Shown: piece by piece, positions 1-8,691 of the stretch | How the letters are laid out: each line of letters begins with the position of its first letter | How positions within the stretch are numbered: position 1 is the stretch's first letter | Translations under genes and position numbers: made by a program | NCBI RefSeq assembly: GCF_014695375.1 | Contig: NZ_JACJOG010000037.1 | Coordinates: 186,001-250,000 of the forward strand | DNA: 64,000 nucleotides | Direction: 5' to 3' | Source of the DNA: Coleofasciculus sp. FACHB-T130 | Lineage (GTDB): Bacteria > Cyanobacteriota > Cyanobacteriia > Cyanobacteriales > FACHB-T130 | The notes under the pieces: model-generated | Database searches by the model: none | What the model was told of the DNA's origin: nothing | Seen by the model: the letters and a program-made list of their open reading frames with translations, nothing else

Positions 1-126
1 GAGGAGCAGGGGTGGGTTTATGTACTGCTTCCAAACAAGAATTCTGATATTTTAGCTAAGACCGAGCTAAGTAGGATGGACAATCCTGAACGTAGACAAG
101 TGCTATTTGAGTGCAGCTTTAATTAA
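1..126 (+). CDS. C-terminal end of an unknown protein (cut by window edge)
   Basis: Frame 1 is open from the first base to a TAA at 124-126 and gives 41 residues ending in RRQVLFECSFN. The composition (GWVYVLLPNKN, then a charged helix-like stretch) looks like real protein, but the fragment is too short to name a family. Its stop overlaps by a few bases the stop of the membrane protein gene on the other strand, a convergent arrangement that supports a real gene end here. The function is unknown. Confidence 0.45.
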   Translation, partial: EEQGWVYVLLPNKNSDILAKTELSRMDNPERRQVLFECSFN

Positions 127-823
127 AACCTAGAAGGTGTCCAATTGCTTTGAAAATACTCAGATAAAAATTCCCTTCCATCGGTCGAAACAATACAAAT
201 TGTCCAGGAGTTCCAAAAAAGGGTCTGAGTGTCCAGCCTAATTGACAGCCAACTAAAGCATAAAGAATTAACCAAAATTTCAGAACTCTGGTACGAGTTT
301 CTTGTGCTGCTTCGCTATCTTGTACGGACATAAACTGTATTCCCTGATAGAGGAAAGTGACGCCAGTCAATCCGGTGAGAGCAAAAATACCCACATTTAA
401 CAATACAAAAAATTGGTAGTTGTGGGCGGTCAACAGAAAAACTAGCGCTACGGGTGCCAAGCTAAATTCTAGAACGCTAATCACGGCGACAGAAGTTAGA
501 AGCATGGCGAAGTACTGTCCAATACTTTTGCTTGAGCCAAAAAGGATGCTGAAAAAATATAAAGTTGGCAAGCAAAGAATCAGCGTGATTAAGTAGAAGC
601 AGGGAAGTTTAACAGCAGAGGACAATGCTTGTAAAAGGCTATGAGATGAACCGATAATTGCGCCATAGGCGGCAAAAAAGAGGGAACTACAAACGAGTAG
701 AGAGGTGATTTTACTGGGAAGTCTTACGCCTTGACGAATTTCTTCCATAAATCCTTGGCGATCGCGTAGCAGCCCCATTAAGACGGTAAAGTAGTGAGTG
801 GTTTGAAATTCTTGTTTAATCAT
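119..823 (-). CDS. Polytopic membrane protein, unknown function (Yip1-like architecture)
   Basis: This 234-residue protein has a short charged N-terminus (about residues 1-38) followed by about six hydrophobic segments: roughly 39-58, 70-95, 104-128, 130-155, 180-198 and a weaker C-terminal one. The motif GCQLGWTLRPFFG followed by a GNFY stretch near the C-terminus resembles a set of uncharacterised bacterial inner-membrane proteins that are often labelled Yip1-like. No catalytic residues are evident. It lies alone, 330 bp downstream of the adenylate cyclase gene on the same strand, so co-transcription is unlikely. The start is the ATG at 823; there is no clear ribosome binding site. The membrane location is clear; the role is not. 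Confidence 0.75.
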   Translation of the reverse strand: MIKQEFQTTHYFTVLMGLLRDRQGFMEEIRQGVRLPSKITSLLVCSSLFFAAYGAIIGSSHSLLQALSSAVKLPCFYLITLILCLPTLYFFSILFGSSKSIGQYFAMLLTSVAVISVLEFSLAPVALVFLLTAHNYQFFVLLNVGIFALTGLTGVTFLYQGIQFMSVQDSEAAQETRTRVLKFWLILYALVGCQLGWTLRPFFGTPGQFVLFRPMEGNFYLSIFKAIGHLLGFN

Positions 824-4625: not shown

Positions 4626-5849
4626 ATGTCACAGCAGATTTTACAGCCTCGATTACCGCTTCCTCCACCGCTGATGATGTCGGAAGAAGGTTCGTTTGCA
4701 AACATGACGCTTCTGAAGCGAATGCCTGCGATCGCGCAGCGAGCGATCGCTGAAAACGACTTTCCGGCATCGATTGTAGACAACCTGGAAACCTTGATCC
4801 GGGACTTGCCGAACGGAATCGTGCGATCGCTCAAAGATGACAATGGCCCAGATTTGGCTGCGTGGACAACATATTTGGCTCCTTTTCTGGGGAAGCGTTG
4901 GATAGACATTCCCTGGTTATTTGCAGAGTTATACTTTTTCCGGCGGATTGTGGAAGCAACCAATTACTTTCCGCCAGGAGCGAGCCAAGGCGTCGATCCC
5001 TACGGATTGCAAAAACGCTTGGGTTTAGAAACGGCAATGGATTCAATCCGGGCAATCGCCGCTAGGATTGGGCATCATACAAGCGATCGCCATACTCGTT
5101 TAATCCCACTGCTCTATTTTTCACTGTGGGGCAACCGCGCCGATCTGAGCCTTTGGCCTATTGAGGCTGGAGAAAGCGATCGCAGCCGTCAGGAAATTCA
5201 GCACGAAGAGGCTCATATTTTGGTCGATGATACACCCATCATTGCGGACAGGATTGCTAGCCTTGATGGGGGAAGAATTGACTTCATCGTCGATAATGCT
5301 GGTTTTGAACTCGTCTGCGATTTGTGCTTGGCAGATTTTCTGCTAACCACTCAGGCGGCTGAGATTTCCCTGCACCTGAAGCGGTATCCTATCTTCGTTT
5401 CTGATGCGACCATTCAGGATCTGCACCACACTTTAGAGGTTTTGGCTGCTGACGTTGATGGGGAAGTGCGATCGCTTTCTCTGCGCTTGCAAGACGCGAT
5501 CGCTTCCGGTCGTTTGCGATGCTATGACGATTTATTTTGGACAATGCCCTTGCCTTTCTGGGAAATACCCGAAGCTTTGCGACAAGAGTTAGCACCCGCC
5601 AGCCTAATTTTTATTAAAGGAGATGCTAACTACCGCCGCTGTTTAGGCAATCGCCACTGGGATTTTACTACCCCTTTTCAAGACATTGCCTGCTACTTCC
5701 CAGCACCGTTAGTAGCACTACGCACCCTCAAATCTGAACTGGTGGCAGGTTTACAGCAAACTCAGATAAACACACTTAACGAAGAAGATCCTCACTGGTT
5801 AACCAATGGACAGCGGGGTGTCATCCAGTTTGTTGACTTCGCCGGTTAG
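4626..5849 (+). CDS. DUF89 / ARMT1-type damage-control phosphatase
   Basis: This 407-residue cytoplasmic protein belongs to the DUF89 family, metal-dependent phosphatases thought to remove damaged or overflow phosphometabolites. The signature is FIVDNAGFELVCDL at about residues 220-232 (catalytic metal-binding Asp and Asn, then a second Asp) and KGDANYRR at about 333-340. The N-terminal helical half (residues 25-150) contains the family's WxDIPWLFAELYFFRRI stretch. Length and motif order match subfamily III (ARMT1-like). The gene is complete and runs from the ATG at 4626. Its last 44 bases overlap a longer open frame on the same strand that contains the downstream peptide gene; this overlap is judged not to be coding. 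The physiological substrate is unknown. Confidence 0.88.
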   Translation: MSQQILQPRLPLPPPLMMSEEGSFANMTLLKRMPAIAQRAIAENDFPASIVDNLETLIRDLPNGIVRSLKDDNGPDLAAWTTYLAPFLGKRWIDIPWLFAELYFFRRIVEATNYFPPGASQGVDPYGLQKRLGLETAMDSIRAIAARIGHHTSDRHTRLIPLLYFSLWGNRADLSLWPIEAGESDRSRQEIQHEEAHILVDDTPIIADRIASLDGGRIDFIVDNAGFELVCDLCLADFLLTTQAAEISLHLKRYPIFVSDATIQDLHHTLEVLAADVDGEVRSLSLRLQDAIASGRLRCYDDLFWTMPLPFWEIPEALRQELAPASLIFIKGDANYRRCLGNRHWDFTTPFQDIACYFPAPLVALRTLKSELVAGLQQTQINTLNEEDPHWLTNGQRGVIQFVDFAG

Positions 5850-6027
5850 AAGCGATCGCGAAAAGTTGCCCGTATCCACTACGCAAACAAAGCAGACTGC
5901 ATTATTACAACCAAGGGTACCAAAGGTTAATCTCCCAAAAGTGGGAGGAAAAGGTGTTTTCATTTACGTAAGTTTTAAGCACGGCAGAAGTTTCCAACGC
6001 TTCAAAGTTTATTTTGAGGGCAACATC

Positions 6028-6321
6028 ATGACTGTAGGTGCAAACAACCAACCAATGCAACCTCAAGACCAATCCTTGTTTGCAGAACTATCCGAACAGG
6101 AACAAGAGGCAGTAGCTGGAGGTTTAGTTTTATTCAGTTTTGACTTTGACGATTGGAAGGCTGAGATTCCTAATGGCACTTTCAATCTCAGTCCATTTAG
6201 CATCAGTTTCACGATTGACAATACTAGCTATACAGCTCAACTAACAGAGCCAGCAACAATATCAATAGTGGATGGAGCTTTGACTGGAACTGGAGGAAAT
6301 CTCACAGTTACTAGCAGTTAA
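6028..6321 (+). CDS. Double-glycine leader peptide precursor A (bacteriocin-like)
   Basis: The precursor has 97 residues. Residues 1-32 form a leader ending in SLFAELSEQEQEAVAGG, with the hydrophobic/acidic spacing and Gly-Gly typical of leaders cut by C39 peptidase ABC exporters. The predicted 65-residue core is rich in Phe, Thr, Ser and Asp, has no cysteine and looks beta-strand prone (FSFDFDDW, SISFTIDN). The start is ATG 6028: GAGGG lies 7 bases upstream, and the leader then has the normal length. The open frame extends back to 5806, but that part overlaps the DUF89 gene and adds an unlikely 74 residues. A hairpin terminator follows. A second such peptide lies on the other strand at 6800-7072 and an HlyD adaptor at 7381. 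I infer export; the activity is unknown. Confidence 0.72.
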   Translation: MTVGANNQPMQPQDQSLFAELSEQEQEAVAGGLVLFSFDFDDWKAEIPNGTFNLSPFSISFTIDNTSYTAQLTEPATISIVDGALTGTGGNLTVTSS

Positions 6322-6365
6322 ATCGTCAATTTATTTGCTGCAACTATTCAGTCAAACCACATGGC

Positions 6366-6399
6366 AACCCCCCTATTTTAAAATTAGGGTGGGTTTTTT
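6366..6399 (+). terminator. Rho-independent terminator after peptide A
   Basis: An imperfect stem pairs AACCCCCCTA with TAGGGTGGGTT around an AT-rich loop, ending in six Ts. It lies 45 bases after the stop of peptide A. Confidence 0.8.
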
Positions 6400-6605
6400 C
6401 ATGGTTGACCAAACCCAGGCTCAAGCCACGAGTTTTTCTTTGCCATCAAGTAATAAACGCAGCATTTTTGAAAAGAGCGATCGCAAGGCGAGCATCGCAC
6501 CCCTTTGAACAATTGATTGCTGATAATAATCTTTGAATAAAAAATTCTCAACACAGAAAATTTCTTCCAAAACACGTTTTTGATGCCTTGCAGATTTCAT
6601 TTCCG

Positions 6606-6728
6606 TTCTTCAGGCAAAATAAAAAAGATGCGATAGAGCAAAACTGCTCTAGAGACTACTTACAAAAGAATATAGAATTGTGGCTTTTTTTAAAAAGTGC
6701 CACAATTCCATTGATTCTGCCTGAAGAA
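6606..6728. repeat. Branched inverted-repeat element (MITE-like or structured RNA)
   Basis: A perfect 11-base inverted repeat (TTCTTCAGGCA at 6606-6616, TGCCTGAAGAA at 6718-6728) encloses two perfect hairpins: TAGAGCA/TGCTCTA at 6634-6651 (7 bp, 4-base loop) and GAATTGTGGC/GCCACAATTC at 6675-6708 (10 bp, AT-rich loop). Together they form a three-way-junction shape of 123 bases. The rest of the 6322-6799 gap holds only the terminator and no convincing gene. It could be a miniature transposable element, a small RNA, or the 3' region of the minus-strand peptide gene. Confidence 0.5.
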
Positions 6729-6799
6729 TTAGCTCAATTTTGCCTTAATAATCAATGATTTCAGGAAAAAAAGTTAATCGGACATTACTTTCAATAAGG

Positions 6800-7072
6800 T
6801 TATTGCAGTCCGTTGCCTCCGTCTTCAGGGAGTGTCGCTGGGATCGTTACATAACCACCTTCTTCACCAAGCCACAGGGTGATAAAATACCCCCCCTCAT
6901 CGTTAAATTCCAGTGGAGTGACAACATTCCCTCCAATCGGTATGCTGCCAGGTGTCGTGGGTGTGTGAAAACCGCCTGTAATGGTGGCAGCTTCCTCATC
7001 CGTGAGTTCTTCTAGAAGATTGAACTCCACCGTTCCTAGTTCGGAAAGTTCTGGAGCAAAGGGATGGGGCAT
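6800..7072 (-). CDS. Double-glycine leader peptide precursor B (bacteriocin-like)
   Basis: The precursor has 90 residues. Residues 1-34 form a leader ending in FNLLEELTDEEAATITGG, a classic double-glycine leader of the nitrile-hydratase-like/class II type. The 56-residue core starts FHTPTTPGSIPIGG. It is acidic, has repeated GG pairs and aromatic residues, and contains no cysteine, so lanthionine or disulfide formation is excluded. AGAAGGA lies 5 bases before ATG 7072, a strong ribosome binding site. The gene is divergent from the HlyD adaptor gene (308 bp apart) and convergent with peptide A. The core is unrelated to that of peptide A, so the two are not recent duplicates. The likely fate is export through a C39-type ABC transporter; the function is unknown. 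Confidence 0.72.
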   Translation of the reverse strand: MPHPFAPELSELGTVEFNLLEELTDEEAATITGGFHTPTTPGSIPIGGNVVTPLEFNDEGGYFITLWLGEEGGYVTIPATLPEDGGNGLQ

Positions 7073-7380
7073 AAAATCCTTCTAAGTTTTTAAGTGTATT
7101 GGGATTAACTAATTAGAGTTTTACTCTGTAGATTAAATGACCGTACCCCTCTGAGGTAGGGTTTTACATCAAAACAAACACGCTTTCAACCAACGCGACT
7201 CCCAATTAATTTAATAATTTTAAAAAATCAACAAAAAGTATTGTGTAAATTTCAGACAACAGGCTGCACTAGGAAAAAGCGATTAACTGCTCAAATTTTA
7301 AACGATGGCAAAGAAATTAAATTCTATTTAAAGTAAATGCAATCATAGTAGAGAACACTCATTCACTGAATGGGACAATC
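7073..7380. promoter_or_regulatory. Divergent promoter region between peptide B and HlyD
   Basis: This 308-base AT-rich gap has no gene. It must hold the promoters of both flanking genes. Two small hairpins are visible: one near 7144-7166 (ACCCC/GGGT type) and one at 7358-7374 (CTCATTC/GAATGGG, 3-base loop) that covers the GGGA ribosome-binding-like bases of the HlyD gene. Confidence 0.45.
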
Positions 7381-8691
7381 ATGCTTAGTGACAGCAACCC
7401 TGACTTTCTCCGCCCAGTCTCTAGCGACGAATTTCTTCCTCCCATCAGCCGATGGACAACGCTAGGGGGATTGTTTTTAGTCGGTACTTTTGGGGTAGCT
7501 GTGATGCTTGCCGCTTATACGCAGTACAACATTACTGTTAAAGCCGCTGCCGTTGTGCGTCCTATAGGTGAGCTGCGCATCGTGCAAGCTTCAACAGAAG
7601 GAACGATTGAAAGCATCTCTGTGAAAGAAAATCAGGTCGTGAAACAAGGGGATGCGATCGCGATTCTGGATAACTCCCAACTCCAGACGAAAAAAAGCCA
7701 ACTGCAAGGCAATATCCAGAATAACCAACTGCAACTGAGTCAAATCGCAGCTCAAATTAGTGCCCTTGACAGCCAGCAAAAGGCAGAGTGGAACTTGATG
7801 AATCGCAACATTGCGGTTTCTCAAGCGGATCTGGGTCGTAACCAACGAGACTATCAAGAGAAGGAAATCATAACTAAGGCAGAAGTGCAAGAAGCACAGG
7901 CATCTGTGGATTTAGCAAGGGCGCAGATGAATCAATATCAACAGCTAGCAAATACGGGCGCGATCGCTCAACTGCAAATCAAGGAAAAAGAAGAAGCTTT
8001 CAAAGCCGCGCAAGCGAGACTACAACGGGCAAAAGCCATGCTTAATCCCAGTGCGGCACCCGTAGTAATTGCTAACGAGCGAATCGCTCAAGAAAGAGCA
8101 ACGGGTGAATCTACCTTAGCAACATTGAACAAAGAACGAAAAACCCTGATTCAGCGTCAAATTGAAATTCAAAATCAACTCAACAGCGACACCCGCGAAC
8201 TCAAACAAATCGGGATGGAACTGCAAAAAAGCGTGATTCGTGCTCCAGCATCTGGCACCATCCTCAAACTAGAACTGCGAAATGCCTCTCAGGTGGTGCG
8301 TGCAGCCGAACCAATTGCTCAAATTGCTCCCAGCAACACGCCACTCATCGTGAAAGCGCGGGTAGCGGCTCAGGATATCGGGAAAGTGGCGGTTGGGCAA
8401 AAGGTACAAATGCGGGTTTCTGCCTATCCCTATCCCGATTATGGAACTCTCTCCGGAAAAGTGAGCGCGATCGCACCCGATGCGATCGCGCCTGAAAATA
8501 ATAACGCCAACGCGCCTGCGGTTCCGCCCTCCTACGAAGTAACCATCCAGCCAGAAAAAATAAATCTGATCAAAGGCGATCGCCCCTATCCAATTCAACC
8601 AGGGATGGAAATTGCCGCAGAGATTATTTCTAGAGAAGAAACCGTACTCACATTTATTCTTAGAAAGGCAAGGCTGCTCACCGATTTGTAG
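7381..8691 (+). CDS. HlyD-family membrane fusion protein (peptide/protein export adaptor)
   Basis: This 436-residue protein is the periplasmic adaptor of a type I export system. It has a short cytoplasmic N-terminus, one transmembrane helix (about 27-47), a beta strand leading into a lipoyl-like half (VVKQGDAIAILDNSQL, about 88-105), a long coiled coil (about 105-285), the second lipoyl half (VIRAPASGTILKLEL, about 288-302) and a beta-barrel region to the C-terminus. It would bridge an inner-membrane ABC exporter to an outer-membrane TolC-like channel. No ABC transporter or peptidase gene is adjacent; the next gene is SirB1. The neighbouring double-glycine peptides are the obvious candidate cargo. 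A small hairpin overlaps the weak ribosome binding site. Confidence 0.9.
   Translation: MLSDSNPDFLRPVSSDEFLPPISRWTTLGGLFLVGTFGVAVMLAAYTQYNITVKAAAVVRPIGELRIVQASTEGTIESISVKENQVVKQGDAIAILDNSQLQTKKSQLQGNIQNNQLQLSQIAAQISALDSQQKAEWNLMNRNIAVSQADLGRNQRDYQEKEIITKAEVQEAQASVDLARAQMNQYQQLANTGAIAQLQIKEKEEAFKAAQARLQRAKAMLNPSAAPVVIANERIAQERATGESTLATLNKERKTLIQRQIEIQNQLNSDTRELKQIGMELQKSVIRAPASGTILKLELRNASQVVRAAEPIAQIAPSNTPLIVKARVAAQDIGKVAVGQKVQMRVSAYPYPDYGTLSGKVSAIAPDAIAPENNNANAPAVPPSYEVTIQPEKINLIKGDRPYPIQPGMEIAAEIISREETVLTFILRKARLLTDL

Follow-up and report, generated by a model that had tools for sequence, protein, structure and literature searches.

A probable split exporter for double-glycine peptides beside a probably relict graspetide-type precursor in Coleofasciculus sp. 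FACHB-T130

We examined a 64,000-nucleotide stretch of the cyanobacterium Coleofasciculus sp. FACHB-T130 (contig NZ_JACJOG010000037.1, positions 186,001 to 250,000, or C37:186001-250000; hereafter the window), in which two small genes for peptides with double-glycine (GG) leaders, A and B, lie next to a gene for an HlyD-family adaptor. The genome (G000) is a 6.2-Mb draft in 60 contigs. In the window's map of open reading frames (ORFs), A and B converge, and B and HlyD diverge. An earlier, sequence-only reading had placed the two peptides, their leaders, starts and ribosome binding sites (RBS), the adaptor and their facing order correctly, as confirmed by the ORFs and a whole-genome leader profile. 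The homology of B to graspetide-type precursors and the ligase remnant at 6475-6617 are absent from that reading. The features discussed below are as follows, the last lying just outside the window.

6028..6321, plus strand: peptide A precursor, 97 amino acids (aa), with a CTB-like GG leader and a 65-aa core without cysteine (ORF, RBS, leader profile)
6085..6123, plus strand: leader end of A, ELSEQEQEAVAGG, with a predicted C39 cut after GG
6475..6617, minus strand: remnant of an ATP-grasp peptide ligase in two pieces, the rest not recognised (tblastn, shuffles)
6617-6555, minus strand: ligase piece 1, with an in-frame stop (LPEERK, stop, NLQGIKNVFWKKFS, against LPQGHRLNLQDVKSVFWRNFS of a relative's ligase)
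6534-6475, minus strand: ligase piece 2, in a different frame (KDYYQQSIVQRGAMLALRSL against KDAHQQRIAFKDSMSTLRSI of a relative's ligase)
6800..7072, minus strand: peptide B precursor, 90 aa, with a graspetide-type leader (MPHPFAPELSEL...LTDEEAATITGG) and three drifted core repeats (family hidden Markov model, HMM)
6815..6925, minus strand: the three core repeats of B, at 6925-6890, 6886-6854 and 6847-6815 (position-specific scoring matrix, PSSM, of relatives' repeats)
7381..8691, plus strand: HlyD-family adaptor, 436 aa (PF13437, 1.5e-21)
C37:182220-184364 (L005:12220-14364; window about -3780 to -1636), plus strand: predicted partner, an ATP-binding cassette transporter with a C39 peptidase domain (C39-ABC), 714 aa

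Peptide B belongs to a recognizable precursor family. It is an ATG-initiated ORF with the leader ...LLEELTDEEAATITGG and the upstream sequence AACTTAGAAGGATTTT. As a query over 291 genomes of the order it found matches in 11, its own genome included, and the small homologues share the leader form MxHPFxL...EELTDEEAxxxxGG and have cores of TTLAIGEEGG-like repeats. An HMM made from ten homologues, with B excluded, recovered B at E 2e-13 among 12310 ORFs, which include the loci that supplied the HMM sequences. A nine-row profile (A2), run over 388 genomes of the order, matched 51, counting that of B and some large multi-repeat ORFs, and B was the sole match within its own genome (E 1.4e-12). Two other candidates were dropped: B as a plantaricin-type lantibiotic, given an NCBIfam match at chance level (E 0.17) and no cysteine, and a weak match to B in G005 (E 0.023), which lies inside a neighbouring transglutaminase-like gene.

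The core of B is less conserved than its leader, with 13.7 against 35.6 bits to the family HMM. The three repeats read VTPLEFNDEGG, FITLWLGEEGG and TIPATLPEDGG. Not one of 20000 residue shuffles reached their summed PSSM score; with the acid-acid-GG blocks left whole, 39 of 20000 did. The motif [TS]TxxxxEE is in none of the three repeats, and is present at least once in 28 of 30 homologous family ORFs.

In relatives, the family is accompanied by an enzyme. An ATP-grasp ligase, whole or in part, lies 41-443 bp downstream of the precursor in 24 of 29 B-family loci, on the same strand in 21. For this count, duplicate fetches of one place were taken once; the window itself, L088, where the contig ends within the precursor, and L100's long ORF with many repeats were left out, and weaker matches of profile A2 fall outside it. 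Partial ligases among the 24 are a 26-aa piece (L095), a 63-aa piece at a contig edge (L218) and one of 226 aa (L232). Among the five loci without a ligase, L230 ends about 220 bp past the precursor and is not judgeable, and L217 has about 820 bp. The ligases match the TIGR04187, MvdD and MvdC models, all under the model cut-offs.

PsnB is the enzyme that makes plesiocin, and TTxxxxEE is what we take to be the plesiocin motif. The solved structure nearest to a relative's ligase is 7drm (E 3.3e-31), which is PsnB according to PMC10452190; plesiocin is described in PMC13097080 as a hairpin-repeat serine protease inhibitor. The family leader and repeats, the adjoining ligases and this structure match indicate that B descends from a plesiocin-like graspetide precursor, i.e., an ATP-grasp RiPP (ribosomally synthesized and post-translationally modified peptide). 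C39-ABC and HlyD families are among the commonest proteins of ATP-grasp peptide loci, according to PMC8939145. Our literature search for TTxxxxEE or GEEGG found neither string, with most subscription papers and supplements outside reach, and we do not claim that the precursor family is unpublished.

Larger ORFs also came to light. One of 440 aa in G284 (L100:3647-4969) has some twelve TTxxxxGEEGG-type repeats plus an additional region at its C-terminus; a Pfam scan gave no match, and downstream, where the contig ends, lies a piece of a ligase. The B profile also matches ORFs of 420-500 aa in G249, G296, G304, G313, G325, G151 and G058. Such ORFs perhaps encode large secreted proteins with crosslinked repeats.

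In the window, the place of the ligase downstream of B, on the same strand, is held by the two-piece remnant. A tblastn search with 21 relatives' ligases gave a best E of 6.6e-6 on a 478-bp region and of 0.005 on 80 kb. None of 1000 dinucleotide shuffles reached the real values, neither the best score (30.8 bits, against at most 26.6 in shuffles), nor the score of the colinear pair (52.7, against at most 41.6), nor the mean over the 21 ligases (24.9). We consider it very improbable that the pieces are chance matches and that B has no more than its leader in common with graspetide precursors. Their length of about 20 residues each and the modest match against 80 kb would fit such an origin, but strand and place are as in relatives, the pieces are colinear and unmatched by the shuffles, the core repeats of B exceed shuffles as well, and a different ligase piece lies beside HlyD in two same-family genomes (G002 and G005).

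No intact ligase was found anywhere in G000 by protein query or family query. The protein query alone was uninformative, and a family query was added, which was positive in all seven B-bearing genomes included. It was also weakly positive in genomes without B (e.g. G004 and G021), as is expected for RimK-like proteins. Local absence of the ligase is not unique to the window, since four other family loci have none in the sequence covered; for one of them, in G092 (L090), a ligase is on another contig. Absence from a whole, complete-looking genome was shown for G000 only.

Two further observations concern this part of the locus. A strong palindrome (GAATTGTGGC...GCCACAATTC, window 6660-6725; fold z -5.1, with 0 of 200 shuffles equally stable) lies between the B stop and the ligase remnant, and may serve B as a terminator or be a short mobile repeat. 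In G243 (L086:3547-3867), which also carries an intact ligase, the ABC orthologue is directly preceded by another ligase copy, cut down to 107 aa (69% identity); decay of ligase copies next to this exporter thus seems to happen elsewhere too.

The sequence-only reading had described HlyD as an orphan adaptor, with the ABC transporter missing from the window and possibly borrowed from elsewhere in the genome. The absence from the window is literally true, but misleading, because a complete C39-ABC ends 1.6 kb before it, 9016 bp before HlyD and on the same strand. Its DCGAAC, Walker A and ABC-signature motifs are present, and its 714 aa hold PF03412 (9e-38), PF00664 and PF00005, which makes it a short type; among 21 families scanned, no cyclic nucleotide (cNMP) domain was found in it. 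HlyD itself matches TIGR01843 at E 3.1e-51 (174.7 bits, under the cut-off of 208.65). When both proteins were used as queries against one shared set of 40 genomes, the ABC was present at >=50% identity in 14, all with an HlyD orthologue; G036 has the ABC only in part and an HlyD orthologue with one stop. An HlyD profile served to fetch loci of relatives, of which the best 80 of 445 were used (the named loci); an ABC orthologue lies near the HlyD orthologue, in tandem or divergent, in 64 of these 80. Among the 49 well-flanked loci this rises to 45, the other 31 being short of 7 kb of left or 3 kb of right flank. In G173, A-like peptides, HlyD, ABC, a PpiC-type isomerase, a ligase and a B-like precursor lie within about 8 kb; G243 has ABC, HlyD, a B-like precursor and a ligase together, and many Nostoc loci hold GG peptides with very different cores between divergent ABC and HlyD genes.

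The orphan adaptor and the borrowed transporter are hard to uphold against these linkages. It appears quite improbable to us that A and B are simply active peptides of the usual GG-leader kind, bacteriocins or signals whose cores are unrelated, and that they are exported by a transporter from elsewhere in the genome. Other transporters do exist, as a whole-genome search for C39 domains found four places (C37, C53, C41 and C49), and GG leaders of different families look alike. However, the C39-ABCs of C53, C41 and C49 are 30-33% identical to that of C37, and those of C53 and C49 adjoin HlyD genes of their own, whereas the otherwise partnerless ABC 9 kb away is cognate, its orthologue being linked to this HlyD in relatives. 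The place of the B family beside ligases also speaks against ordinary active peptides. The C53 and C41 proteins, the two scanned, carry a cNMP-binding domain, and no relative of this HlyD was found near the C41 transporter in the 19 kb read, where the neighbours were not Pfam-scanned. HlyD is most likely not an orphan, and the C37 C39-ABC is its probable cognate partner.

Our leader profile, made from 35 of 84 collected leaders of other species with A and B excluded, found A at E 4.0e-5 and B at E 0.0013 in the whole own genome; no further GG-leader cargo was significant there, the single other match up to E 10 standing at E 2.33. Its best match in the same-genus sister genome G001 was no better than E 2.33, and up to E 10 there were 11 matches in G021 and 12 in G039. 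The genome-wide search proposed in the sequence-only reading gave four C39-ABC places and no significant leaders beyond A and B. That reading's view of the leaders as C39-exporter type, in a setting of bacteriocin-like peptide export, agrees with the leader profile and NCBIfam. In the 80 named loci, a GG regular expression gave 94 matches in 48 loci versus 3 in 60-bp block-shuffled DNA, and no peptide in the remaining 32.

Close relatives show the locus in several stages of loss. A lack of conservation in close relatives, which the sequence-only reading had named as grounds for its refutation, is seen in part: neither A nor B had a match in the five same-family genomes searched (G001-G005), but a deletion is readable in G001, and HlyD and ligase remnants persist in G002 and G005. 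HlyD is present only as pieces in G001, G002, G005, G018 and G020, and about its last third is kept in G002 and G005. In the sister G001, one deletion (window 5861 to 8524) removes A, B and most of HlyD, leaving the HlyD 3' end; the neighbour genes are kept in order, apart from the guanylate cyclase gene, of which that stretch showed no copy. The ABC of G001 is reduced to fragments (aa 646-714) at its separate place, with the same neighbours. Judged from these sequences, both exporter halves are lost in the sister, and since both decayed at separate places, the split arrangement predates the two species.

The different ligase piece of G002 and G005 consists of 25 residues of aa 198-222, is up to 72% identical, and lies next to what is left of HlyD, oriented relative to it as in the window; none was found in G001 and G018. 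Independent ligase pieces in the window and in G002/G005 suggest that the common ancestor of these genomes probably had a ligase beside HlyD at this place. As a separate observation, comparison of the G001 deletion junction (L054) with window 5851-8525 puts the left end at the octamer GCGATCGC, presumably the HIP1 repeat, which may have guided the deletion.

Peptide A is different in kind. Its ATG at 6028, with the leader ...LFAELSEQEQEAVAGG and the upstream sequence TTTTGAGGGCAACATC, is an inner ATG of a 171-aa open frame beginning at 5806, and we favour 6028 as the start by its RBS and leader. As had been reported, neither A nor B contains cysteine, and neither matches a Pfam family at E 1. 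Against the CTB bacteriocin family NF038167 of NCBIfam, A fell short of the cut-off of 32 bits, with 30.2 bits and, when the genome was searched, 29 bits. A kinship of A and B was considered and rejected, in line with the unrelated cores described earlier, as the match of A to the B family is limited to the GG part (6.7 bits). A looks CTB-like, and no enzyme that might modify it was seen. At its 3' side lies one more feature:

6366..6395, plus strand: possible terminator hairpin 3' of A, followed by a T run (fold z -2.3)

This hairpin, as which 4 of 200 shuffles fold as well, was not picked up by the consensus terminator scan.

Peptide A may be a bacteriocin or an EbfG-like biofilm protein. 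By analogy, the exported peptides could help to build a biofilm or matrix, as EbfG does in Synechococcus elongatus, instead of having an antimicrobial function, but we regard this as doubtful. EbfG1-4 carry a GG motif and depend on the C39 transporter PteB for efficient secretion (PMC4997328), and a single-sequence structure model of A is strand-rich, with a low-confidence mean pLDDT (predicted local distance difference test) of 67.8 that is too weak for a fold search. Against a biofilm role stands the B family, which sits beside graspetide-type ligases.

Taken together, we think it likely that the locus is a decaying, split export locus of graspetide/CTB type, in which the exporter and A are intact and B is probably a relict. 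It would be what is left of a ribosomal-peptide locus that has a two-gene exporter of its own. Cleavage of A and B after GG would fall to the C39 domain of the C37 ABC, and the ABC, HlyD and presumably an outer-membrane channel would export the cores. Formerly, B would likely have been crosslinked by the ligase into ester-bridged hairpins, plesiocin-like and probably acting as a protease inhibitor. With the ligase gone, B would be exported at most as a linear peptide, its repeats having drifted, and crosslinking is now unlikely unless an unrecognised enzyme acts. The locus would be in the course of being lost in this lineage.

A rather unlikely alternative is that B was re-used, being exported unmodified with its drifted core in a new role without crosslinking. 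Its open frame, RBS, family leader and three repeats have been kept despite the broken ligase. On the other hand, selection is not measurable, as the five same-family genomes hold no intact orthologue, the sister genome deleted B, and the core stands at 13.7 bits against 35.6 for the leader. Quite unlikely, too, is the fuller version, in which selection keeps B as an unmodified exported peptide that reverted from a modified lineage, and the split exporter is maintained for A and linear B.

Several observations weigh against a decaying graspetide/CTB-type locus. The ligase remnant is short, with two pieces of about 20 residues each, and single-Thr repeats (e.g. ITKALCEDGG) also occur in relatives with a ligase, so the repeats of B are not necessarily unmodifiable. 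The B-family genes of L090, L217, L219 and L233 have no adjoining ligase and still keep the motif; an unlinked ligase is therefore possible in principle. For A, the score is 1.8 bits short of the CTB cut-off and the match is confined to the leader region. As for the exporter, ABC and HlyD are 9 kb apart here and not adjacent, and in G026 and G028 they are on different contigs; four of the 49 well-flanked named loci (L128, L130, L131 and L150) lack the ABC, in G011 HlyD stands alone, close to the end of a contig, and in G029 a fragment of the ABC has no HlyD with it.

Besides A and B, five other genes occupy the 9016 bp between ABC and HlyD:

L005:14375-15130: gene without a confident Pfam family
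window 119-823: gene without a confident Pfam family
remaining three genes: a guanylate cyclase domain protein, an FAD-dependent oxidoreductase and an ARMT1-like protein

Scans for promoters and consensus terminators gave signals at chance level only.

If B is indeed a relict, what seemed a puzzle of two unrelated peptides and an orphan adaptor becomes a history of a split exporter, a broken enzyme, a drifting motif and a deletion in a sister genome. It also calls for caution, as a RiPP precursor without a nearby enzyme may be a relict. Moreover, in some genomes the TTxxxxEE-type precursor family neighbours the exporter lineage that also accompanies microviridin-type and CTB-type peptides. The kind of system is already known, here in a state of decay; what surprises is that the loss of the ligase can be read directly next to a precursor that survives.

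Among known systems, the CTB family NF038167 resembles A in the leader region, and an A-like peptide of G173 passes its cut-off (44.1 bits), whereas A itself remains at 30.2 bits against 32 and its core has no similarity. EbfG and PteB of Synechococcus elongatus, likened here by description (PMC4997328), share with the window small secreted proteins with a GG motif and a C39 transporter. Plesiocin-type graspetides are like the relatives of B in their TTxxxxEE repeats and the single ATP-grasp ligase beside the precursor, but the window retains just a remnant of the ligase, and the motif is in no repeat.

The cyanobacterial export clusters for GG precursors of Wang, Fewer and Sivonen (2011, PMC3140520) are similar to the window in their short-type C39-ABC, HlyD and GG precursors with variable cores. 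By gene content alone, with no tree, the locus is nearest to their groups III-V, and the same text calls truncations and rearrangements frequent in cyanobacterial bacteriocin export clusters. It differs from the clusters described there in that ABC and HlyD are 9 kb apart and one precursor is graspetide-type with a broken ligase.

Finally, the microviridin-type locus of G024 (L044:8282-15307) has a precursor (PF12559, 8.9e-28) and two ligases between HlyD and ABC orthologues, and a C39 peptidase followed by HlyD occurs in some microviridin clusters, according to a review (PMC7823629). The window differs from such loci in its core and ligases, and neither A nor B contains TKYPSD. However, the ABC of G024 is the closest orthologue of the C37 ABC (81%), which suggests that this exporter lineage serves several graspetide types.

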